From Sutcliffiella horikoshii DSM 8719 (GTDB lineage Bacteria > Bacillota > Bacilli > Bacillales > Bacillaceae_I): DNA of 64,000 nt. The notes beneath the pieces are model-generated. The model saw nothing but the letters and a program-made list of their open reading frames with translations. It did no database searches and had not been told where the DNA came from. Below are positions 43,080 to 55,475 of this stretch, in pieces (the stretch's first letter is position 1; each line of letters opens with the position of its first letter). Made by a program: the position numbers and the translations under genes. The stretch lies in the NCBI GenBank assembly GCA_001648575.1, contig LQXN01000064.1:310001-374000 (forward strand). The letters are read 5' to 3'.

Positions 43080-44816
43080 TTATGAGGTCTTACGATATTC
43101 TGCAACCTTATTCCTTCCAGCCTGTTTCGCGCCGACATACATCGCACGGTCCGCATGGCGTATGAGGTCAAGTGTGTCTTCCGCATCATCGGGGGCAGTA
43201 GCAAACCCGATGCTTGCTGTCACTTTTACAAGTTGCGAACCTTGTACATCACGGATATGTTGCTTGAGCGGGAAAGACCTTGTTGCAAGGTTCACCCGGA
43301 TGCGTTCAGCAAGCTCAAAGCACTGGCCACGATTCAGATTGGGAAGGAGGATGACGAATTCTTCCCCTCCATATCTTGCTACTGTCCCCTTATTCCCTAT
43401 GAGGGCTAACAGTCGATCAGCTACCTGCATGAGAATTTCATTTCCACTTTGATGACCGTACACATCGTTGATTCTCTTGAAATGATCCAGATCAAGCATG
43501 ATAAGGGAAAGAGATTCAGATTGGCCATTGCTCAGTTTTTCATACTCTTTATCCAATACACTTTCGAAAAAGCGGTAATTATAGAGCTTGGTCAGGGCAC
43601 AGCGTTCGCTCTTCCGCTTTGTGTCTTGGTAGTGGCGTGCCTTTTCCATTGCCACTCCGAAATAAGAACAAAGTATGTCAACAATCATCAATTGTGATTT
43701 GTCATATGTCCGCTTAGAGGAGCTAGCTAATAGTACCAGCCCTTCAATTTTGTGATTTCGAATAACTGGTACACACATCACACTTTGTATAGAAGCGGGG
43801 AGATGCGTTTTGGAAAGTTGTCTCCATTCTTTTTTCGTCAAATAGCAGACGCTTTTCCCCCTTTTCAGCACATGGGCGAGAAGGTCTTCTTCATCAGTGT
43901 GCAAGATGGTGTTAACCTCCACGCTGTTCTCCTTGTCCATCACCCGGAGCACCTTCATGATCTTATCCCCGTTCACATCTATTATTGCGGCATAATCCAC
44001 CTTAAAGAGGGTGGATATTTTATCTAGAAAAACATCTAATACTCCCTTCGTATCAAGCCTTTCTGTTAGCTGGTGTCCCACATCTGCTGCTTGTTGGAGG
44101 CGAAAATTGACCTTTTGGCTGGCATGATAGAGTTGTAGGATCAAAGTGAGGATGACAAAGGGCAAACCGACATATAACAAGGCAACTGCTCCCAATTGCT
44201 CATAGAGGGTATAAAGGATCAATCCCACCGGTAGGACCATGATGCTTGTAACTCCATCCCACTTTGTATCAGAAGTGATGAATTTACTTTTGCGGTCGTA
44301 TATCCGTACCTGGATAAAATACAGCCCCACTGTATTCAAGGTGAAATAAACCAATTCATGGGCAAGGATCGGCGTAAGGACCCCAATATTGAATAACCTT
44401 GTATCACCATGTGTCCCCCCTAAAGCGTAGAAAACAATACCCGCTACCAAGGAAATGCTTGAAAACATAAGAACATTAATAGGTATCCGAACTAGGTTTT
44501 GCCTGTTCACACGCATATAAACCATCAGGGCAAGGACCGAAATCAGGGTCACTACCATTTCAATAAATAAACCAAAGGACAGAAGGGCAGCAAGCGACAC
44601 ACCTTGTGCAAGAAATAGTGGTACCTCTCCGACCACTATCGGAATAAGGGCAAGTATAATCGCTAGCGCTATAAACCCAACAAGATGCCACATCGGCAAA
44701 TCTTCCAAAACCACGGGAGAAAGCTGATAACCTAGCCATAAAAAAATGGGAACCAATACGACAAAGCTTGTCCAAATTGCCATTTCCTTAGGACGATTCA
44801 CTGCTTGAGCAACCAA
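43080..44816 (-). CDS. Membrane diguanylate cyclase, GAF-GGDEF
   Basis: About 578 residues. Six to eight membrane helices (residues about 15-235), GAF domain (about 255-400) and GGDEF domain with RYGGEEFVILLP and the upstream IMLDLDHFKRINDVYGHQSG, so the active site is intact. The product-inhibition I-site (RxxD five residues before GGEEF) is absent, since NKGT stands there. TTG 44816 with GGGAGGGG upstream is the likely start; ATG codons at 44858 and 44837 have no spaced site. Sits between the pil locus and folC; the product could feed PilB. Confidence 0.9.
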   Translation of the reverse strand: MVAQAVNRPKEMAIWTSFVVLVPIFLWLGYQLSPVVLEDLPMWHLVGFIALAIILALIPIVVGEVPLFLAQGVSLAALLSFGLFIEMVVTLISVLALMVYMRVNRQNLVRIPINVLMFSSISLVAGIVFYALGGTHGDTRLFNIGVLTPILAHELVYFTLNTVGLYFIQVRIYDRKSKFITSDTKWDGVTSIMVLPVGLILYTLYEQLGAVALLYVGLPFVILTLILQLYHASQKVNFRLQQAADVGHQLTERLDTKGVLDVFLDKISTLFKVDYAAIIDVNGDKIMKVLRVMDKENSVEVNTILHTDEEDLLAHVLKRGKSVCYLTKKEWRQLSKTHLPASIQSVMCVPVIRNHKIEGLVLLASSSKRTYDKSQLMIVDILCSYFGVAMEKARHYQDTKRKSERCALTKLYNYRFFESVLDKEYEKLSNGQSESLSLIMLDLDHFKRINDVYGHQSGNEILMQVADRLLALIGNKGTVARYGGEEFVILLPNLNRGQCFELAERIRVNLATRSFPLKQHIRDVQGSQLVKVTASIGFATAPDDAEDTLDLIRHADRAMYVGAKQAGRNKVAEYRKTS

Positions 44817-44937
44817 ACTATCCCCTCCCTTCTTCATCCTTTTTCGACACACTTTCACAATAATTAAATATTATCAAATTTTCTAACATTTGTCACAACA
44901 AAAATAGGATAATTATCCCTTATCTCTTTTCCCCACT

Positions 44938-46200
44938 TCATGTGAGTTTAGTCCTAATTTCAGAAATGAAATATAATGAACCGGTAATCAATAGTAAAGA
45001 ATTGTCATCAAGCCTTGATACAGCAGACTGTAATGCAGTTTTCCAATCCTCTTCAAACTCTTTTTTCAAAAGTCCGCTGACCAGAAAAATATCTTCCGCG
45101 CGGGCTGCCCTCGGGAAATCAAAAGAAGTAAAAATAATCTCATCTGCGATATCATCCAATTTTCGGACCATCATTTCAATAGGTTTATCTTTCAAGGCAC
45201 TGAATAAGACGACTATCCTTTTTTCCGAAAAATTCTTTTTCATTGTAGTCACCAACGCTTCAACAGCTTCTTCATTATGGGCACCATCAAGTATGATAGG
45301 GGGTTCTTTTTGAACCAATTCGAAGCGGCCGGGATGCTCCGTTTTCACTAGACCTGCTTTTAACACGCGCTCATCAAACTTCATGTTCCACTTTTCTATT
45401 AATAGTACATAAGCCATGATGGCCAATGAGGCATTGGCTGCCTGATGCTCTCCTTGCAAAGATAACTCTAGTTCCTCCATGTTTTTCTTTGCAGAATGAA
45501 AAGAAACCCTTCCATCTTCCATCCGGTAAGAAAATTCTTCTCCCATAAAATAGCCCGGACTTTTTTTCAACGAAGCTTCTTTCTTAATTACTTCTCTTGC
45601 CGCTGACTTTTGTTCCCCGGAAATAATCGCAACTCCCTCTTTGATGATACCTGCTTTATGATAGGCAATTTCCTGCACAGACCTTCCAAGAAACCCAATA
45701 TGGTCATGTCCGATGTTCGTGATGATACTGAGTATTGGTGTCATCACATTCGTAGAGTCTTCTCTTCCACCGAGCCCTACTTCAATCAACGCGATGTCCA
45801 CCTTTTTAATGACGGCAAAATAATAAAACGCCATCGCCGTTTGCAATTCAAACTCCGTCAATCCAGCTTCACTTAATCCATGCTTGTTAAACACCTCGAT
45901 GATTTCTACCATTTCATCATCTGTTATATAGGTGCCATTGACAGAAATTTGGTCATTGATGAAGCGATATGCAGGTGAATGGAAAACCCCTACCGCAAAG
46001 CCTGTCTCTTTTAATAAACTCTCCAAAAAGCGCAGGGTAGAACCCTTACCGTTAGTCCCACCAATATGAACAACCTCTATTTGATCTTGCGGATCACCCA
46101 CTTTTTCCAAAAACTGCTGCATTCTGTCCAGACCAAGATTTATTTCATTTTTAATTGTAAAATTCACTTTCTCTTGTAATTCTTTAAATGACAAAAACAT
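44938..46200 (-). CDS. folC: Bifunctional folylpolyglutamate / dihydrofolate synthase
   Basis: 420 residues. P-loop HIGGTNGKGSTLRFLESLL, FHSPAYRFINDQI, EVGLGGREDSTNV, the carbamylated-Lys segment YHKAGIIKEG, and the canonical ILDGAHNEEAVEALV. Adds gamma-glutamates to folates. ATG 46200 with AAGGAG 6 bases upstream. In B. subtilis folC lies directly after valS; here 6 kb separate them. Confidence 0.96.
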   Translation of the reverse strand: MFLSFKELQEKVNFTIKNEINLGLDRMQQFLEKVGDPQDQIEVVHIGGTNGKGSTLRFLESLLKETGFAVGVFHSPAYRFINDQISVNGTYITDDEMVEIIEVFNKHGLSEAGLTEFELQTAMAFYYFAVIKKVDIALIEVGLGGREDSTNVMTPILSIITNIGHDHIGFLGRSVQEIAYHKAGIIKEGVAIISGEQKSAAREVIKKEASLKKSPGYFMGEEFSYRMEDGRVSFHSAKKNMEELELSLQGEHQAANASLAIMAYVLLIEKWNMKFDERVLKAGLVKTEHPGRFELVQKEPPIILDGAHNEEAVEALVTTMKKNFSEKRIVVLFSALKDKPIEMMVRKLDDIADEIIFTSFDFPRAARAEDIFLVSGLLKKEFEEDWKTALQSAVSRLDDNSLLLITGSLYFISEIRTKLT

Positions 46201-46264
46201 ATTGTTCTCCTTTTTGCTTATCTGTTGGGTTAAAATGAAAATATTAATAATTTGAGGTGGAACT

Positions 46265-48115
46265 ATGATTAATAAACTTCCAAATGCCTTCTCTGTTCCG
46301 GAAAACATACGGACAGATTTTTCAAAAAACAAAAGTAAGCTGGTTAAACGTTCCATCATGTTGCTGTTTGGACAAGTGAAGATCCACAAGGGAAATTCAC
46401 CTATTTTACTGGTCATTCCTTCTACTGATATCAATTTGCTGGCGTTGGGGATAACCTTGCAAAATGTAAGTAATTGTCACCTGATGATAGTGAAAAGTAT
46501 GACCCCGAAGACAGAAACCAAGATACAACGATATATCGCCCAATACAATATCCGTGGATTGATAGGCGTGGAGGAAAGGGAAAATAACGGGTATGAGTAT
46601 ATGTACAATGATCATTTTCATCCTCTCATAAACTATATAACAGAAAAATACATAGACACAACTGTACCAAATACCATCACAACGGAAGAAGATTATTGCC
46701 TCAAAGAAAATAAACCATCTGTGAAGTTTTTCATCAATAAAAACGATGCTGCATCTTTTTTACCAGTGCTTCTTTCCTTATTAAAAGTGTTGCCAACCCA
46801 AATCGAGCATAATCAGGAACCTTGGACAGCTGCGTCTGTGTCCGATACCTTCAAGGTTTCCATGATCACCCCTTTTAACCGTTTGGAACTGACAGGAGAA
46901 ACGAAGGATAAATGGGGGCTTAATGAACATGATTATGTATTTGTTCTGAATCCCGTCTCAGGGTCATTTCGTAAATGTGTGGTCTATGAAACGAAGAAGA
47001 AATTAGCTGCGGATGAAGTCGTCCTAAGTACAGGGGTCAAGAAGGATTTGTTCGGTACATCAGCTGCTGCCGAGCCCCTCCTTATCCAAAAGGCAGCAAG
47101 GTTTCCCGTTCACCATATTCAAACACAGAGCGCCAGTGATGTTCAGTTAAATCGTGTCATTGTATCGGAAAACTTGATGGATAAACTGAAGAGGACCGAA
47201 TCGCCCTATATCGAATTAATGAATCCCCATACCGGAGGATCCTTTGATTTTCATATTTCCCAGTTAGCTCACCAGCCTGGTCTAACGGACGACAAAACGA
47301 TCAAGCTGAACTACATACAAAGACAGTACTTGGATTATGAACAACCACCAGATTTCATCCCTCCCACCGTCTTGAAGGATCTTTGTCAGAATTTGAATTT
47401 GACAGAGACCGAACAACTTTTACTAAATGGTACATACGGGGAAGGAAACGTTTTGGAACGGATAAGCTATCAGGAATCGCTTCAGCTTAAAAAAGTATTG
47501 AAAAAGGCCGGATATTATCATACATTCATGTATCCTGTTAACCATTATTATAAGGAAATTAAGAAGCTATCCTTAAAAAAGCGCATCACCAACAAACTGC
47601 TTACTGTTTTCATCGGGAACAAGCAACTTTCATTAAAGGTAATCAGGCCATATACATCAGATGAAACAAGCAACATCATCCGCCTAACGAAAAGCACCAT
47701 GACCCTGCTTGGAATTGAAGAGGCCGATACGGTAATCTTATCTTACCGCAACAAAACCGCCAAAGCGCAAGTACTGGAGATGGATGATCTGGAGTTGATT
47801 AAAGAAACCAACATCATGTCTTCTAGCAGCATGATGAATATATCCGTTGCCGTTCCTTCAACCATCAGGACCCACCTGGGGTTGAACAATATCGGCAAAG
47901 TCATCTTAGTGGAACGCGATATGACCTTTCTTTTGAAAAAGAATTGGAACATTCAATTTGTGCCGATCATAGCGGTCATGTTCACCGTTTTGTCTGTGTC
48001 CATTTTCACTACATGGACACGAATCTTATTGCTCCTGTTTTTCGTCCCTTTATCCATGTATGTTACGCTATCAAGAGTTCGTTATAGCATCTCCAATAAA
48101 AAACAGAACCAATAA
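46265..48115 (+). CDS. Unknown tail-anchored protein with barrel-like repeats, first gene of the ligase operon
   Basis: 616 residues; no family recognised with certainty. An N-terminal 160 residues of Rossmann-like strand/helix pattern (ILLVIPSTDINLLALGITLQ). Three later segments repeat a pattern resembling double-psi or AbrB-like barrels: LELTGETKDKWGLNEHDYVF, RVIVSENLMDKL, and RLTKSTMTLLGIEEADTVIL followed by VPSTIRTHLGLNNIGKVILV. The C-terminus has two membrane helices (residues about 557-577 and 581-598), then a basic tail, so the bulk is cytosolic. GAGGTGG before the ATG. Starts only 64 bases from divergent folC. May be a scaffold or substrate carrier for the downstream ligases. Confidence 0.8.
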   Translation: MINKLPNAFSVPENIRTDFSKNKSKLVKRSIMLLFGQVKIHKGNSPILLVIPSTDINLLALGITLQNVSNCHLMIVKSMTPKTETKIQRYIAQYNIRGLIGVEERENNGYEYMYNDHFHPLINYITEKYIDTTVPNTITTEEDYCLKENKPSVKFFINKNDAASFLPVLLSLLKVLPTQIEHNQEPWTAASVSDTFKVSMITPFNRLELTGETKDKWGLNEHDYVFVLNPVSGSFRKCVVYETKKKLAADEVVLSTGVKKDLFGTSAAAEPLLIQKAARFPVHHIQTQSASDVQLNRVIVSENLMDKLKRTESPYIELMNPHTGGSFDFHISQLAHQPGLTDDKTIKLNYIQRQYLDYEQPPDFIPPTVLKDLCQNLNLTETEQLLLNGTYGEGNVLERISYQESLQLKKVLKKAGYYHTFMYPVNHYYKEIKKLSLKKRITNKLLTVFIGNKQLSLKVIRPYTSDETSNIIRLTKSTMTLLGIEEADTVILSYRNKTAKAQVLEMDDLELIKETNIMSSSSMMNISVAVPSTIRTHLGLNNIGKVILVERDMTFLLKKNWNIQFVPIIAVMFTVLSVSIFTTWTRILLLLFFVPLSMYVTLSRVRYSISNKKQNQ

Positions 48116-48134
48116 CTAAAAGGATGGACCACTC

Positions 48135-48791
48135 ATGAATTTTAACCTATGGGAAAGAACATTCATAGAAGAAAGCTTCATAGGAAATCAAGAAGGCTTT
48201 CATTATATCCAAGGCGACCTGCCGATTCTCTTATCTGCACCCCACAGCGTAACCCAGATACGAAACGGGAAAGAAAAACAGGGAGAATTCCTGACAGGCC
48301 CAATGGTCATGCATCTTCAACAACATCTAAACTGCCATGCCATCTTTAAAACGAAAAATATGATGGATGATGCCAATTATGACCCTAAAAGCACGTATCG
48401 TGATTTTATAAAAAGGAAAGTTGCGAAACATGCCATTTCCTTTCTATTGGATTTTCATATTATGGCTCCATCCAGACCATATAATATCGACCTTGGCACA
48501 GGTAGAGGCAATAACCTCCGACACCGGGAAGGTCCGAGGATTGTAAACCATATACAAAAGATCCTATTAGACCATGACATCAATCAAGTGCTAATTGACA
48601 ATATCTTTACCGCCGGCTACCCATACACTGTATCTGCAGATGTTTCAAAAAGCTGCAATATTTTCTGTTTGCAAATTGAAATGAATTGGAAGTTACTTGA
48701 TGGGGCTTCAGATTCCATTTACTTTGAGAAGATTCTTAAAGCAATGGAGTTAATCATACACTATCTCGCATCAATGGAGGACCAAACATGA
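48135..48791 (+). CDS. N-formylglutamate amidohydrolase-like protein
   Basis: 218 residues. The fold is suggested by ILLSAPHSVTQIRNG at the N-terminus, LLDFHIMAPSRPYNIDLGTG in the middle, RGNNLRHREG, and CLQIEMNWKLL near the end. These match the HutG/N-formylglutamate amidohydrolase superfamily, zinc enzymes that hydrolyse N-acyl-amino acids. His and Asp ligands are kept. In this operon it could process a glutamyl or N-acyl product made by the ligases. 19 bases after the previous gene; overlaps the next by 4 bases. Confidence 0.75.
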   Translation: MNFNLWERTFIEESFIGNQEGFHYIQGDLPILLSAPHSVTQIRNGKEKQGEFLTGPMVMHLQQHLNCHAIFKTKNMMDDANYDPKSTYRDFIKRKVAKHAISFLLDFHIMAPSRPYNIDLGTGRGNNLRHREGPRIVNHIQKILLDHDINQVLIDNIFTAGYPYTVSADVSKSCNIFCLQIEMNWKLLDGASDSIYFEKILKAMELIIHYLASMEDQT

Positions 48792-49699
48792 CTCATTTAC
48801 TATGTTGGATCATTTATAACGGAAACCTTCCCGAGCAAAAATTCATCGAGCTTGCGGAATGGTTTGATACGGAAGCGAAGAAACATAATATCTCTACTAA
48901 GCTCCTGAAAAATAATGACCTGTTTCCAGCCGTGAAGGATGGGAGAGCAACATTGGAAGGAATTCATAAAAATAGTGAACTGCCAGATTTCGTTTTTTTT
49001 CTTGATAAAGATGTGTTACTTGCACGCCACCTAGAGAAAATGGGGATTCCTGTCTATAACAGCGCTTCCTGCATTGAAATATGTGATAACAAATCACTCA
49101 CATTTCAAACCCTTTCAGATCACGGGATACCAATGCCAAAAACCCTTTTAGCTCCAATGGTCTTTCATTCTCATGAGAATCTAGAACCCTTTTACCATGC
49201 TGCAGAAATTCTAGGTTTTCCGCTTGTAGTAAAAGAAGCATATGGATCATTTGGAATGCAGGTTTATTTGATTCATACAATAGAAGAATTGCTTGTGAAA
49301 GTAAAAGAAATAGGGAACCGACCTTTTCTGCTGCAAAAATTCATCTCTTCTAGCAAAGGCAAAGATATCCGCTTGAATGTCGTTGGTGACGAGGTGGTTG
49401 CCTCGATGATGCGAATATCAGAAACGGATTTCCGGGCTAACGTGAGTAATGGCGGAAGAATGCTAAAGTATGAACCGACCGCATTGGAAAAAGAAGTCGC
49501 AATCCGAAGCGCAAAATTTGTAGGGGCTGATTTCGCCGGGGTAGATCTCCTATTTGCTGAGGACGGCTCCCCGCTTGTTTGTGAAATAAACTCCAATGCC
49601 CATATCAAAAATATCTTTGATTGCACCGGGATCAACGTTGCGACGTATATCGTCCCGCATATTTTACAGAAGTGGAAAGAGACCCAACATGAAAACTAA
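48788..49699 (+). CDS. RimK-like ATP-grasp ligase 1
   Basis: 303 residues. N-terminal alpha/beta domain, then ATP-grasp: FPLVVKEAYGSFGMQVYLI, LLQKFISSSKGKDIRLNVVG, ADFAGVDLLFAEDGSPLVCEINSN in three pieces, ending with the Mg-binding E-I-N. The closest classes are RimK, LysX and CofF-type amino-acid ligases, which add Glu or similar to an amine or carboxyl. Metal and nucleotide residues are intact, so it looks active. ATGA overlap with upstream gene; 11-base overlap with the next. Confidence 0.88.
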   Translation: MTHLLCWIIYNGNLPEQKFIELAEWFDTEAKKHNISTKLLKNNDLFPAVKDGRATLEGIHKNSELPDFVFFLDKDVLLARHLEKMGIPVYNSASCIEICDNKSLTFQTLSDHGIPMPKTLLAPMVFHSHENLEPFYHAAEILGFPLVVKEAYGSFGMQVYLIHTIEELLVKVKEIGNRPFLLQKFISSSKGKDIRLNVVGDEVVASMMRISETDFRANVSNGGRMLKYEPTALEKEVAIRSAKFVGADFAGVDLLFAEDGSPLVCEINSNAHIKNIFDCTGINVATYIVPHILQKWKETQHEN

Positions 49700-50570
49700 A
49701 GGGTGGCTTATTTACGAAGCAGAACACGCCAAAAAGAATAGGGCTTTTATTGAATGGTTTTTGGATGAAGCAAGGGAGTTGGATATTGAACTCGACTTCA
49801 TCTTGCAAACAAGTATTTCCTTTGGTGTTCGAAATAATGAGTTGGCTATTTTATTGGATGGTGCACAACTGATGGAAGCACCGGACTTTGTCATCATGAG
49901 GAATATTGATCCACTTTTTAATGAGCAGCTAGAATGCCTGGGGATACCTTGCTTCAACTCCCACCTCGTTTCTGTTATCTGCAATGATAAAGCCAAAACC
50001 CATCAATACTTGGCAGGCCAAGGGGTTCCGATGTTGGATACATTTTTCATGACAGCTGACGAACTCCTTACTGGAAACCTCCCCCTTCCTTTCCCATTTG
50101 TCATTAAAACGAGGACCGGAAGAGGCGGCGGTGACGTTTTTATGGTGGAGGATTCCGATCAATTGCAAGCGGTACATGCCGAACTATCCGCTCGTTCCAT
50201 CATCCTTCAACCACTTGCAGGGTCTCTCGGTAAAGACTTGCGAGTGTATGTATTGGGAACGGAAATCGTTGGAGCTGTGCTTCGTTCCAATCAGACGAGT
50301 TTCAAAGCCAATTTCACACTTGGCGGACAGGCAGAAGCTTATATACTCAATGAGTGGGAACTTACTGTCGTAAACAAGATCATTCAGCAGTTTGATTTTG
50401 GGCTTGTGGGCATTGATTTTTTATTTGATGAAAATGGCTGTTTGCTTTTTAATGAAATAGAAGATGTTGTCGGCTGCCGGACATTATGCCTGACAAGCGA
50501 CATCAATATTGTAAAAAGGTACTTGGAATTCATTTTACAAAAGCTTGCAACAGGAGAGACATTCACATGA
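49689..50570 (+). CDS. RimK-like ATP-grasp ligase 2, altered metal site
   Basis: 293 residues. Same fold as the preceding gene but only distantly similar. PFVIKTRTGRGGGDVFMVED (ATP-binding Lys and glycine loop), QPLAGSLGKDLRVYVLG, FGLVGIDFLFDENGCLLF. The terminal metal motif reads NEIEDVVGCRTL, where RimK-like enzymes typically have E-x-N; here the Asn position is Glu. ATG 49689 overlaps the previous stop; an in-frame longer start lies inside the previous gene and is rejected. Likely acts with ligase 1 or on a different acceptor. Confidence 0.85.
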   Translation: MKTKGWLIYEAEHAKKNRAFIEWFLDEARELDIELDFILQTSISFGVRNNELAILLDGAQLMEAPDFVIMRNIDPLFNEQLECLGIPCFNSHLVSVICNDKAKTHQYLAGQGVPMLDTFFMTADELLTGNLPLPFPFVIKTRTGRGGGDVFMVEDSDQLQAVHAELSARSIILQPLAGSLGKDLRVYVLGTEIVGAVLRSNQTSFKANFTLGGQAEAYILNEWELTVVNKIIQQFDFGLVGIDFLFDENGCLLFNEIEDVVGCRTLCLTSDINIVKRYLEFILQKLATGETFT

Positions 50571-51901
50571 CATTTCAAACCATGAAAGAAGCTGTACCAT
50601 ATATCTACTCCTCGCTGCTTAAAGCAAAACCTTTTCAAAACGAGGAAAATGATGCGCTGACACGGGCTCCGTATTTAACAAAGGAACTACTGACCGCACT
50701 AGATCTACTTCCTGCAAAAGAAAAGGTGATCCTTGTTACAGGTAGTAAGGGGAAAGGCTCCACATCTCGGATGATGGCAGCCATCCTCCGAAAGTTGGGT
50801 TTAAAGGTTGGATTATTCACCTCTCCTCATCTGATTGATTATAATGAGCGGATCCGGGTGAATGGAAAAGCGATTTCTGATGAAGCGTTCCTCACCTATT
50901 TGAATCAGCATGCACCTGTCATCGATAGGATTACAGCTTCCATCGAAAACCCCCAACATTATCTGGGGCCGACTGGAATCCTGCTATCTGTGGCACTTGC
51001 CCACTTCCAACAAGAAGCAACCGACATCAATGTCATAGAAATTGGCCGCGGCGGCACATATGATGATACGAATGTATTGGAAAATAAATGGGCCGTACTG
51101 TCGAAGGTCATGGAAGAACATCTAGGGTTCCTAGGGCAGTCATTGGAGGATATTGTTCGGCATAAAGTTGGGATCATGAAAGAGTGTACAGACTATGCTG
51201 TGATTGGTAGACAGTCTGAGGAAGCGATGGAAATGATCCATAGTTTGGTTGTTGAATCAGCTGCATTTTTTGGTACAGATTACGTGCCTTCTAATATATC
51301 AACAAGTTTGTCAGGAAGTACTTTTACATTACAGACCATGTTTGGTAGATATGATGATTTTTCGCTCCCATTATTGGGATCCTTCCAAGTGGAAAATGCA
51401 GCACTTGCGATTCAAGCCTGTGAAACTGTAGTGGGGAGAGGACTGCCCGATGACTTACTGAAAGAGGCATTAAGTGAGTTAAGATGGCCAGGCAGACTAG
51501 AGGTTGTTGCAGAAGACCCGACTGTCGTGTTGGATGGGTCCATAAACCGCGTCTCCGCAGTTTATTTAAAAGAAATCTTACCACTCGTAGATGCCAGGAA
51601 GGTCGCCACCATTATCGCCGTTCCTGAAAATAAAGATTACGAAGGGGTCATCAAGGTTTGCAGTGAGTTTTCGGACATTTTAGTTGTGACAACCCCTGAT
51701 AACTCGCACAAGACATTTCCCTCAGATGCACATGCTGTTGCCCGGAAGTACCACACTGGCGCAATGGAAGTAGGCTTCCTTTCAGAGGCAGTAAAACTGG
51801 TGCGGAATTGTTCGCCTACTCTCATCTTCATTGTTGGAACACAGTCGATGATCGGCAGTGCCAAGGAGATTTGGAAGGATTCATTGATGGATATCGGATA
51901 A
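50567..51901 (+). CDS. Divergent FolC/Mur-type amide ligase
   Basis: 444 residues. P-loop ILVTGSKGKGSTSRMMAAIL, TSPHLIDYNERIRVNG, EIGRGGTYDDTNV, and HKVGIMKEC with the Lys kept. The FolC motif DGAHN is replaced by VLDGSINRVSA, so it is not an ordinary folate enzyme, and a true folC is present 4 kb away. CAGGAGAG 8 bases before ATG 50567, ATGA overlap with ligase 2. Predicted to form an amide bond, perhaps gamma-glutamyl or peptide, in a non-folate product. Confidence 0.87.
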   Translation: MTFQTMKEAVPYIYSSLLKAKPFQNEENDALTRAPYLTKELLTALDLLPAKEKVILVTGSKGKGSTSRMMAAILRKLGLKVGLFTSPHLIDYNERIRVNGKAISDEAFLTYLNQHAPVIDRITASIENPQHYLGPTGILLSVALAHFQQEATDINVIEIGRGGTYDDTNVLENKWAVLSKVMEEHLGFLGQSLEDIVRHKVGIMKECTDYAVIGRQSEEAMEMIHSLVVESAAFFGTDYVPSNISTSLSGSTFTLQTMFGRYDDFSLPLLGSFQVENAALAIQACETVVGRGLPDDLLKEALSELRWPGRLEVVAEDPTVVLDGSINRVSAVYLKEILPLVDARKVATIIAVPENKDYEGVIKVCSEFSDILVVTTPDNSHKTFPSDAHAVARKYHTGAMEVGFLSEAVKLVRNCSPTLIFIVGTQSMIGSAKEIWKDSLMDIG

Positions 51902-51906
51902 ATATG

Positions 51907-51960
51907 CGCTTCGGCTGCCTCTTAAGCTTGATGGAGAGGTGTTGCCGGAGCGTTTTTTTT
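51907..51960 (+). terminator. Terminator of the ATP-grasp/Mur-ligase operon
   Basis: Long stem built from CGCTTCGGC and GCCTCT paired with AGAGG and GCCGGAGCG (51907-51922 / 51935-51952), small internal loops, then TTTTTTTT (51953-51960). Confidence 0.85.
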
Positions 51961-52018: not shown

Positions 52019-52119
52019 GGGTTCTATGGGAAATCGATGGGATTTATGGGTTCTATGAGATTTGCGGGTTCTATGAGGTTTGCGGGTTCTATGGGATTTA
52101 TGGGTTCAATGGAATTTGC
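52019..52119. repeat. 18-bp tandem repeat array downstream of the ligase operon
   Basis: Four near-identical units of GGGTTCTATGAGATTTGC (52048, 52066, 52084, 52102) plus degenerate units before. In the plus frame they read GSMRFA-like repeats, but there is no ribosome site, so I do not call a gene. The remaining gap to 52268 holds a second set of about 21-base units (CCTTCTAACTTTC core, about 52163-52223) and an ATTTCCC-rich tract. Confidence 0.75.
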
Positions 52120-52268
52120 GGCTTCTTTATTTCCCAGATTTAATTCTCAATTTCCCAACCAACCTTCTAACTTTCAGGCTCATCCTTCTAACTTTCGGTG
52201 TCCATATTCTAACTTTCACCGGCTCTATTCTTCAATTCAGGCAAATTCCCCGATACCTCTAAACAACT

Positions 52269-52333: not shown

Positions 52334-54982
52334 TTATCCCTTCAACTCATCAATGCGAGCTTGAACGGCATCACGCTTTTCTACATAATCTTGCTCTTTC
52401 GCTTTCTCTTCTTCTATGACATTTGCAGGTGCTTTCGCGATGAAACCTTGGTTAGAAAGCTTCTTCTGCACGCGCTCTACTTCTTTATCAAGTTTCGCAA
52501 GTTCCTTGTTCAGACGGGCGATTTCTTCGTCAATATTAATCAACCCTAAAAGAGGAAGAATCAATTCCGCCCCAGTTACAACTGCTGTCATCGCCTTCTC
52601 GCCGCCATTTAAAGCAACATCTGTACCAATCAACAACTCACTTGGATTACAGAAACGCTCAAGGTAAGAACGGTTGTTTTCCAGTTTCCCGGCAATCTCA
52701 GAAGTTTTCGCTTTTACAAGCAATTTAACCTGCTTGCTCATCGGCGTGTTCACTTCTGCACGGACATTACGAACGCTGCGGATGATGTCCACAAGTAAAC
52801 GCATATCCGCTGCCGCTTCCTTGTCTGTCAGATCCTCGCGAACTTCCGGCCATTTAGCACACGTGATGGACTCGCCTTCATGAGGAAGCTGCTGCCAGAT
52901 CTCTTCAGTAATGAATGGCATGAACGGATGCAACAGGCGCATCGTGTTATCCAATACGTAAGCCAAAATAGAACGCGTTGTCTTTTTCGCCGCTTCATCT
53001 TCGCTGTACAATGGAATTTTCGCCATTTCGATATACCAGTCACAGAAATCATCCCAGATGAAGTTGTAAAGGGCACGGCCCACTTCACCGAACTCATACT
53101 TCTCAGCAAGCTTGGTTACTGTCTCGATCGTTTCGTTCAAGCGAGTCAGGATCCACTTGTCTGCTACCGACTTCTCACCGCTCAAGTCGATATCCTCGAA
53201 CTTCATGTCACCCATATTCATCAAGGCAAAACGGGAAGCGTTCCAGATCTTATTCGCAAAGTTCCAAGTCGACTCCACTTTTTCATAGCTGAAGCGCAGG
53301 TCCTGACCTGGTGAGCTTCCGGTAGATAGGAAGTAACGCAGGGAATCCGCTCCGTACTTTTCAATAACATCCATCGGATCCACACCGTTTCCAAGGGACT
53401 TACTCATCTTGCGCCCTTCCTCGTCACGAACAAGTCCGTGGATCAGAACATCTTTAAATGGACGCTCGCCAGTGAACTCAAGTCCCTGGAAGATCATACG
53501 GGAAACCCAGAAAGCAATGATATCATAGCCGGTAACCAGGCAATCTGTCGGGTAGAAACGTTGATAATCCGGCGATTCTGTTTCCGGCCAGCCCATTGTG
53601 GAGAACGGCCATAACGCTGAACTGAACCATGTATCAAGAACGTCTGTATCCTGCTCCCAATTTTCGATATCTTCCGGTGGATTATGGTCAACATGGATTT
53701 CTCCAGTTTCTTTGTTATACCAAGCAGGAATTCGGTGGCCCCACCATAGCTGACGGGAGATACACCAGTCGCGGATATTTTCCATCCAGCGCATGTAGGT
53801 GTTCTCAAAGCGATTCGGTACGAAATTAACCTTGTCTTCTTGGGACTGAAGGTCGATCGCCTTATCCGCAAGCGGCTGCATCTTAACGAACCATTGTGTG
53901 GAAAGATACGGTTCAACAACCGCTCCGCTTCGCTCACTGTGACCAACGGAATGCAAATGCTCTTCAATTTTGAAAAGAACGCCACTTTCCTGCAAGTCTT
54001 TTACAAGCTGCTTACGGCATTCAAAGCGATCCATACCATTGTATTTGCCGGCTTTTTCGTTCATGCTGCCGTCTTCGTGCATAACAAGGATGCGCTCCAA
54101 GTTATGACGGTTTCCAATTTCAAAGTCGTTCGGATCATGAGCAGGAGTGATTTTAACTGCACCGGAACCGAATTCCATGTCTACATAATCATCGGCAACG
54201 ATCGGGATTTCACGGCCAGTGATAGGCAGGGTTACCATTTTTCCGATCAGGTGCTTGTAGCGCTCATCTTCCGGATGAACCGCAACCGCAGAATCCCCAA
54301 GCATTGTTTCTGGGCGTGTTGTCGCGATTTCAATGGAACCGGAACCATCTGTCAGAGGGTATCTCATATGATAGAAGGCACCTTGAACATCTTGGTGAAT
54401 TACCTCGATATCAGAAAGAGCCGTTTTAGTGGCTGGATCCCAGTTGATGATATATTCGCCACGGTAGATAAGGCCTTTTTTATATAGCGTTACGAAAACT
54501 TCGTTTACTGCTTTGGAAAGCCCTTCATCCAATGTGAAACGCTCACGGCTGTAATCAAGGCCAAGGCCAAGCTTGGACCATTGTTCTCTGATATGCTTTG
54601 CGTATTCGTCTTTCCACTTCCACGATTCTTCCATGAACTTTTCGCGGCCAAGCTCATAACGGTTGATTCCTTGATTGCGAAGCTTTTCATCTACTTTCGC
54701 TTGCGTCGCGATTCCTGCGTGGTCCATACCAGGTAACCATAGAACGTCAAAGCCTTGCATGCGCTTCATGCGGGTGATGATGTCTTGCAGGGTGGTGTCC
54801 CATGCGTGGCCCAGGTGAAGGCGTCCCGTTACGTTTGGTGGCGGGATAACGATGGTGTATGGTGTTTTGTCCTGGTCGTTCGTCGCTTCAAAAAAGCGGC
54901 CGTCCAGCCAGTATTGATAACGGTTTTTTTCAATTGTTTGTGGATCGTATTTGGTCGGAAGGTTTACTTCATTCATTTCCAT
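52334..54982 (-). CDS. valS: Valyl-tRNA synthetase
   Basis: 882 residues. Class I signatures: [19 protein letters not shown] (HIGH) near residue 46 and KMSKSLGNG (KMSKS) near 525, editing domain between them ([19 protein letters not shown]), C-terminal coiled coil. ATG 54982 with AGGAGG 7 bases upstream. Controlled by the upstream T-box; a palindromic repeat lies between T-box and start. Confidence 0.98.
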
Positions 54983-55044
54983 CCTGATTCCTCCTGTTCT
55001 CTTATAGAAAATGGTTCTGTATAGCACCTGTAAAAGCAGTATCT

Positions 55045-55193: not shown

Positions 55194-55475
55194 AAAAAAC
55201 TCCCTTCATCCAAATAAAAGGACGAAAGGAGTTAAGTTTCGCGGTACCACCTTTTTTTACAGGGGAAAAATAAATACACTACACCCTGTACACTCAAATC
55301 TGTTAACGGCTCTCCACCGGTTTCAACTACTGAACATATGTGTTCGCTGAAACTACTCGAGGGCGACTTTCCAATCCGACTTTCCTGAGATACCTTTCAG
55401 CTGATGGTTTCCCTCTCTAAAGGAGCCAGGCATTGTACTCTTCCCTGTCACTGTATTTAATCGTTATCTTATTAC
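55194..55475 (-). ncRNA. T-box leader of valS
   Basis: The T-box sequence GGTGGTACCGCG is at 55240-55251 (minus). The terminator stem AACTCCTTTCGTCC (55220-55233) pairs with GGATGAAGGGAGTT (55198-55211) and is followed by TTTTTTATTTT. Upstream: stem I with AGAGAGGGAAACC and a candidate specifier GTC (Val) at 55365-55367 in GGAAAGTCGCCC. Uncharged tRNA-Val binding would stabilise the antiterminator. The specifier assignment is less certain than the T-box itself. Confidence 0.95.

Follow-up and report, generated by a model that had tools for sequence, protein, structure and literature searches.

Overview of the five-gene block

The window analysed here, a stretch of 64,000 nucleotides from Sutcliffiella horikoshii DSM 8719 (contig LQXN01000064.1, positions 310,001 to 374,000), carries at 46265-51901 a block of five tightly packed plus-strand open reading frames (ORF1 to ORF5) between folC and valS, both of which lie on the minus strand. 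The block encodes a membrane protein with double-psi beta-barrel-like domain(s), a hydrolase resembling N-formylglutamate amidohydrolase (FGase), two RimK-type ATP-grasp ligases and a FolC-derived Mur-type ligase, which together may form a membrane-tethered system for writing and trimming amide-linked tails. These families are known, but their combination and their modular behaviour appear undescribed within the literature searched. The set is modular: ORF1 and ORF2 come and go together, the ligases persist without them, and ORF5 is distributed on its own. A first-pass annotation had taken the block for one fixed five-gene pathway, which was not borne out, as the genes form recurring sub-modules across genomes; its observation is confirmed, and its interpretation is partly supported and refined here to a modular system.

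ORF1 and ORF2 are separated by 19 nucleotides, while the later junctions overlap by 4, 11 and 4 nucleotides, in agreement with the arrangement of short gaps and overlaps first proposed. A terminator placed earlier at 51907 also holds, for the plus strand carries at 51906-51953 a hairpin of 48 nucleotides with a T run after it; its folding energy is -27.1 kcal/mol (z -4.71), a value reached by none of 200 shuffles. All five genes are under purifying selection, with ratios of nonsynonymous to synonymous substitution rates (dN/dS) of 0.07-0.16 against the relatives G007, G008 and G009 (G-numbers denote comparison genomes and L-numbers the loci around them).

Distribution and modularity of the gene set

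Among the 16 genomes searched from the window's genus, all five genes are present in five (the window's own, G007, G008, G009 and G014), whereas ORF3-ORF4-ORF5 occur alone in seven (G005, G006, G010, G011, G013, G015 and G016) and no block gene stands between valS and folC in three (G003, G004 and G017). In G012, the three ligases are intact and ORF1 and ORF2 have decayed to remnants. The ligase trio is therefore kept in 13 of the 16 genomes, and its dN/dS is 0.08-0.18 in three pairs, including the trio of G012. From two other genera of the family, G001 possesses all five genes and G002 none. The relatives that hold all five genes include Sutcliffiella horikoshii KcN35-3 and Bacillus sp. RO1. 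The four block-free genomes of the family all have valS and folC side by side, folC coming directly after valS.

The wider distribution was read from two draws, one with 397 genomes from the order (135 genera) and one with 398 from the phylum. The ORF1 profile matched 14 of the order genomes (8 of the 135 genera; the G012 remnant is counted), the ORF2 profile matched 32, and the ORF5 profile, at E 1e-80, matched 22 (nine genera); in the phylum draw, ORF1 matched its own genome and G419 only. Several partial forms were met with. ORF1-ORF2-ORF3-ORF4 lie without ORF5 between folC and valS in G138, G058, G183 and G208, and likewise in G087, where ORF1 comes last. ORF2, a short ORF1 and ORF5 stand in this order away from the valS-folC site in G238, G167 and G419, and G389 carries a stop-broken ORF2 followed by ORF3 and ORF4. 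ORF5 occurs without ORF1-ORF4 within the fetched stretch in G022, G132, G069, G024, G086 and G299. Beside ORF5 in G238, G419, G022 and G132 lies, in convergent orientation, a gene of another RimK-type ATP-grasp family (45-50% identity between genera), so that four of the nine ORF5-bearing genomes lacking ORF3/ORF4 have a different ATP-grasp partner; no such gene turned up in the stretches fetched from G167, G069, G024, G086 and G299. The gene set is conserved across relatives and is met with again in further genera and at different sites of the chromosome.

The joint occurrence of the genes was followed at the level of single loci. Wherever an intact ORF1-type gene was found (14 genomes, not counting the G012 remnant), ORF2 and one or more ligase genes adjoin it. 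The 14 closest ORF2-type loci of the order draw (E 2.4e-82 or better, nine genera) all adjoin ORF3/ORF4 or ORF5, while none of the 19 more distant ORF2-type loci (18 genomes) has these genes within about 5-7 kb; a 20th weak match, which lies inside ORF1 of G208, stands outside this count. On an ORF3 and ORF4 tree covering 20 genomes, four changes of state are needed for ORF1 and the same four for ORF2, with the stop-containing ORF2 of G389 scored as absent, although these joint changes cannot reach significance (sign test, p 0.25), because there are only three well-supported independent pairs. The first-pass annotation had named independent scatter of the genes in relatives as evidence against a common pathway; this applies in part, the genes coming apart, though mostly in recurring sub-modules.

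We consider it highly improbable that valS-folC is simply an insertion hot spot gathering unrelated genes with no joint function. The contents of the site do vary: it may hold all five block genes, four, three or a single one, or, in G045, an ORF2 relative together with a hairpin protein unlike ORF1. However, this explanation is already disfavoured by the recurrence of the same partners elsewhere in G238, G167 and G419, and the conserved order and overlaps and the joint changes of ORF1 and ORF2 also argue against it. The patchy occurrence of ORF1 (14 of the 397 order genomes, one of them a remnant) and of the ORF5-type gene (22 of 397), as well as the presence of several amide ligases together, would suit the synthesis of a small peptide-like metabolite, such as a siderophore, an osmolyte or an antibiotic-like compound, ORF2 serving as a hydrolase for tailoring or self-protection. 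Such a product seems distinctly unlikely, as the block includes no transporter, regulator or other tailoring gene and the ligase trio is kept in most genomes of the genus.

RimK-type ATP-grasp ligases ORF3 and ORF4

ORF3 (48788-49699, plus strand) encodes a protein of 303 residues, which exceeds the cut-offs of both PF08443 (E 1.8e-39, 135.8 bits against 21) and TIGR00768 (197.3 bits against 143.4) and whose PDB matches include an S6-glutamate ligase and a lysine-biosynthesis ligase. ORF4 (49689-50570, plus strand; 293 residues) is more divergent, passing PF08443 (E 3.8e-22, 79.3 bits against 21) and falling below TIGR00768 (117.5 bits against 143.4). Its best PDB match is 3vpb (4.6e-15), and the motif NEIED is invariant in 10 aligned rows. 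The start of ORF4, as well as that of ORF5, was set at an inner ATG that fits the relatives, the mechanically called frame being longer (49596-50570). The presence of two distinct RimK-like ligases, as first annotated, is thus upheld by the Pfam cut-off. In a genome-wide ranking of RimK domains, the two block genes come first (137 and 80.5 bits), and three other genes lie over the cut-off (36.1, 28.1 and 21 bits). Neither protein reaches the RimK S6-ligase equivalog model PRK10446 (97.6 bits for ORF3 and 46.2 bits for ORF4, against 331).

Having the two best RimK-domain matches of the genome beside a dedicated hydrolase, the block resembles the RimK/RimB writer-eraser pair, as far as the accessible part of the source describes it (PMC11957791), and might accordingly polyglutamylate a protein other than ribosomal protein S6. 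We hold this very improbable, because ORF2 is not a retropepsin. S6 itself is disfavoured as a target: in this genome it ends in KKEEK, the same as in the block-free G004. The C-terminus of S6 varies regardless of the block (nine of ten S6 genes read), and a glutamate end occurs in two genomes, the block-free G002 and the carrier G138.

ORF5 represents a FolC-derived clade

ORF5 (50567-51901, plus strand; mechanical frame 50486-51901) encodes a protein of 444 residues, which passes the FolC subfamily model TIGR01499 (248.5 bits against a cut-off of 162.65) and does not reach the equivalog models; it matches the L. casei folylpolyglutamate synthase 1fgs at 1.3e-39. The ORF5-type clade, here called FolC2, is separated from canonical FolC by 21 alignment columns, two of which are insertions. 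These columns were identified from 23 FolC2 and 26 canonical sequences, with conservation of at least 90% in canonical FolC and at least 85% in FolC2, and two ambiguous FolC-like proteins were left out. In FolC2, GTNGKGS is changed to GSKGKGS, TEFE to GPTG and DGAHN to DG[SA]IN, among other changes; TEFE and the histidine of DGAHN presumably serve folate or glutamate binding. Judged from these alignments, ORF5 belongs to a clade that derives from FolC but carries altered residues at positions conserved there, and the divergent FolC/Mur ligase recognised in the first pass is supported by both the model score and the clade-specific residues. Some of the genes scoring as "bifunctional FolC" in these genomes belong to this clade, whose members may well lack FolC activity, a point to heed in folate annotation and in metabolic models.

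Poly-gamma-glutamate synthase was also considered and rejected, since ORF5 falls short of the PgsB equivalog model (13.8 bits against 222.7) and no gene of the whole genome is over the PgsB cut-off. A further FolC-like protein (L151 5570-6940 and L154 8440-9801; 40% identical to each other) lies directly beside the ORF5-type genes of G069 and G299, and it is neither clearly canonical FolC nor FolC2.

ORF2, an amidohydrolase-like protein

ORF2 (48135-48791, plus strand) encodes a protein of 218 residues without any Pfam match at E 1, the gathering score of the FGase family PF05013 not being reached. In its family alignment, six of the 11 members, though not the window protein, match PF05013 with E values of 1 or less, the lowest being 5.4e-6. 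Nevertheless, ORF2 has in common with relatives over the PF05013 cut-off the motifs PH, DxN, DxH and QxE, which we take to be catalytic in FGase-like hydrolases. These motifs are found again in close and distant family members alike, the distant ones showing single departures. ORF2 is thus predicted to be an FGase-like hydrolase with its motifs kept. The earlier assignment to an N-formylglutamate amidohydrolase-like enzyme stands for the family relation and the motifs, although the window protein itself is below Pfam detection. No leader is seen on ORF2, and by our reading of the sequences some distant relatives carry a lipoprotein-like leader.

Several observations were made on the wider ORF2 family. 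ORF2-type domains are fused to S-layer homology (SLH) or CWB2 cell-wall-binding repeats in L107, L111 and L113, and these proteins are therefore probably surface hydrolases. A distant relative adjoins a gamma-glutamyltranspeptidase gene in G221, oligopeptide ABC transporter genes (importers) lie near distant relatives in G221 and G286, and an ORF2-type gene stands beside proteins with 8 (G301) and 10 (G140) NlpC/P60 domains (L105 7546-10680, L116 7526-11458). Such neighbours hint, indirectly, that glutamyl-type or peptide amides may be the substrates. In addition, two proteins of 715 residues (L100 7391-9538, G017) and 728 residues (L101 4822-7008, G045), which are 40% identical and bear a C-terminal hydrophobic hairpin, each adjoin a more distant ORF2-type gene, the pair of G045 being located at the valS-folC site. 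Neither protein has a Pfam match, and the one of G045 shows no similarity to ORF1; by appearance they may be CorA-like.

ORF1, a membrane protein with barrel-like and hydrolase-like domains

ORF1 (46265-48115, plus strand; 616 residues) ends in a hydrophobic hairpin at residues 561-605 (47945-48079), delimited by hydropathy and sequence, and basic residues flank the hairpin on both sides, suggesting that both of its ends are probably cytoplasmic. Residues 445-557 (47597-47935) are predicted from profile matches to form a CDC48-N-like double-psi beta-barrel. The part at residues 457-511 matches CDC48_N at E 2.8e-6, but the score of 27.8 bits is below the Pfam cut-off of 35.1, and the family profile matches an engineered barrel (7dvc, 2.2e-5) and a CDC48 barrel (7dg9, 4.5e-5) in the PDB. 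Of the tail-anchored barrel-like protein proposed at first, the barrel was retained on this sub-cut-off match, whereas the single tail anchor gave way to a two-helix hydrophobic hairpin. An internal repeat covers residues 192-375 (46838-47389), as the two halves align in hhalign with probability 90.4 (E 1.4e-6). Against the barrel at 445-557, the first half reached probability 61.7 and the second half 0.5; the region is probably another barrel, the first of the two in the protein.

The N-terminal residues 34-182 (46364-46810) appear as a degenerate relative of the ORF2 hydrolase domain when the two families are aligned by hhalign (probability 95.4, E 1.7e-8), and in that alignment ORF1 has lost the PH, DxH and QxE residues of ORF2. 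Single ORF1 homologues from G208, G183 and G058 scored 26.8, 9.4 and 6.3 bits to the ORF2 family, compared with at most 5.2 bits for shuffled N-termini. The short ORF1s of G238, G167 and G419 are without this domain. A further hydrophobic stretch at residues 47-65, inside the hydrolase-like region, also lies over the hydropathy threshold. The degenerate copy of the ORF2 domain points to a role of ORF1 as a scaffold or regulator, and a scaffold is regarded as probable.

Proposed function of the block

We tentatively read the block, with confidence a little short of even, as a cytoplasmic, membrane-tethered amide-bond "write and trim" system. This reading builds on the family relations of the products, the kept motifs of ORF2 and changed motifs of ORF5, the joint presence and absence of ORF1 and ORF2 and the recurrence of the set. 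Using ATP to activate a carboxylate, ORF3, ORF4 and ORF5 would extend an acceptor stepwise by amino acids, which are most likely acidic, and ORF5 might form gamma-linked bonds, by analogy with FolC. ORF2 would hydrolyse such amide bonds and thereby trim the tail, which would be acidic or glutamyl. ORF1 would be a non-catalytic partner, whose hydrolase-like domain, barrel(s) and hairpin could hold ORF2, the product or both against the inner membrane face. The direction of the chemistry, the kind of amino acid, the docking and the topology are parts that we infer.

Several points weigh against this reading. The block holds no substrate or carrier gene. Seven genomes of the genus have the trio but neither ORF1 nor ORF2, and five genomes from other families have the four-gene form but no FolC2, so that the parts do not strictly require one another. 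FolC2 stands without a visible partner in G086 and G024, and with only the further FolC-like neighbour in G069 and G299, while the adjacency counts are not independent, because the genomes are related. The relation between ORF1 and ORF2 is seen through family profiles, the window's own ORF1 scoring just 1.5 bits to the ORF2 family. Structure predictions, each from three rows, were unusable for ORF1 (mean predicted local distance difference test score, pLDDT, 31.6) and ORF2 (mean pLDDT 48.9); a PDB fold search with the ORF2 model gave no match at E 0.001 or better, and all of these were left out of the conclusions.

CDC48/p97 docks partners through the kind of barrel predicted in ORF1. A bolder variant, which we regard as quite improbable, is that the block constitutes a bacterial non-ribosomal tagging system with the two ATP-grasp ligases and the FolC-derived Mur-type ligase as writers, the FGase-like protein as eraser and a membrane-bound barrel protein as reader. 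ORF1, combining a CDC48-type barrel with a degenerate copy of the eraser, would then recognise the tail and bring the tagged protein or cofactor to the membrane. If the write-and-trim reading is true, Bacillus-like bacteria possess an uncharacterised amide-tail pathway in which ligases of the ATP-grasp and FolC-derived kinds act alongside a dedicated hydrolase and a scaffold at the membrane. Variants with five, four, three or fewer genes occur naturally and provide a ready series for finding the product by comparison.

History of folC and the flanking region

The canonical folC (44938-46206, minus strand), the divergent neighbour of the block, has a history that tracks the block and not valS (52334-54985, minus strand, start codon approximate) on the other flank. 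In the folC tree, a single clade (100/100) unites G001 with the 13 carriers of the block in the genus, to the exclusion of the block-free G002, G003, G004 and G017, and in the valS tree the carriers and G001 do not group in this way. By approximately unbiased (AU) tests on folC, the genus as one clade was rejected (p 1.8e-52), as was a grouping of G001 with G002 (p 2.9e-63), while the whole family as one clade was not rejected (p 0.083); on valS, a single clade of all block carriers in the family was rejected (p 6e-4). Between the carriers and the four block-free genomes of the family, folC is 39-45% identical and valS 87-95%. These comparisons are most simply read as a joint exchange of folC and the block, with caution owing to the long folC branches.

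This shared history led us to consider a functional link between folC and the block, although linkage explains it equally. E. coli adds alpha-linked glutamates to folates. Similarly, the block could edit folate tails, acting on folylpolyglutamates from the neighbouring canonical FolC, to which the RimK-type ligases would add alpha-linked and ORF5 gamma-linked glutamates that ORF2 would remove. In favour of this explanation are the folC and valS tests above and the placement of the block next to folC, both within the family and in six genomes that do not belong to it. On the other hand, FolC2 is without residues kept in at least 90% of the 26 canonical FolCs (TEFE, GTNGKGS and DGAHN being changed), no canonical folC lies within the fetched 16-17 kb at the G238, G167 and G419 blocks, and the co-exchange may be mere linkage, given the long folC branches and the whole-family clade that was not rejected. 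On balance, folate-tail editing appears unlikely.

A T-box leader (55215-55460, minus strand; 129.9 bits) is located upstream of valS in the window. As folC directly follows valS in the block-free genomes, insertion of the block may have separated folC from T-box control. RimA has been linked with c-di-GMP in Pseudomonas, and a GGDEF-type gene (43080-44858) stands beside folC. This gene is kept in the family with or without the block and is therefore no evidence for a diguanylate-cyclase link, which was rejected.

Comparison with known systems

Cyanophycin synthetase combines an ATP-grasp and a Mur ligase in one protein. The block likewise brings ATP-grasp and Mur-type chemistry together, but its genes are separate and score far lower on the cyanophycin synthetase model (40.8, 19.8 and 38.7 bits for ORF3, ORF4 and ORF5, against 850). 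Canonical FolC resembles ORF5 in overall similarity, as seen with 1fgs, and differs from it in the 21 columns specific to the FolC2 clade. An anti-phage defence function was tried and rejected, as PADLOC models matched none of the five proteins at E 0.01. TupA of teichuronopeptide synthesis (PF14305) had no match in the genome, and the control genomes gave none either.

The RimK/RimB module of S6, in the accessible part of its description (PMC11957791), likewise consists of a RimK-type ATP-grasp ligase and a dedicated hydrolase removing the added residues; unlike it, the block has two RimK-type ligases, a Mur-type ligase, a membrane barrel protein and a hydrolase that is FGase-like instead of retropepsin-like, and S6 here ends in lysine. 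In methylofuran synthesis, two ATP-grasp enzymes, MyfA and MyfB, build a glutamate chain on a small molecule, and the available portion of that report mentions no Mur-type ligase, FGase or barrel protein (PMC8141765). Operons that link two or more ATP-grasp ligases are an established pattern, in the R2K clade and others, according to a paper that cites a 2009 survey on this point (PMC4431377); the main text of the citing paper lacks the words FolC, formylglutamate, barrel and Mur ligase. Pseudomurein ligase genes also pair ATP-grasp and Mur-type ligases, but they serve the archaeal cell wall (PMC11915815), and ORF5 is far below the pMur (pseudomurein ligase) cut-offs. No system of this composition is described in the titles or abstract starts among the literature matches listed, in keeping with the statement in the first-pass annotation, and the block is therefore a candidate undescribed system. 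The survey of ATP-grasp amidoligase neighbourhoods by Iyer et al. in 2009 may describe part of it.

Additional features of the block region

A simple terminator scan missed the hairpin at 51906-51953 because its loop limit is 8 nucleotides, and its count was no higher than in shuffles. The promoter scan found 15 candidates against 15.2 expected, which supports no promoter claim. Most of the printed loci of the window's genus share a stretch resembling GTTAGGTTAAAAT upstream of their first block gene. Finally, a tandem array with a period of 18 and five copies (consensus ATGGGATTTGCGGGTTCT) lies 3' of the terminator at 52037-52218, and it is followed by a second array with a period of 21.

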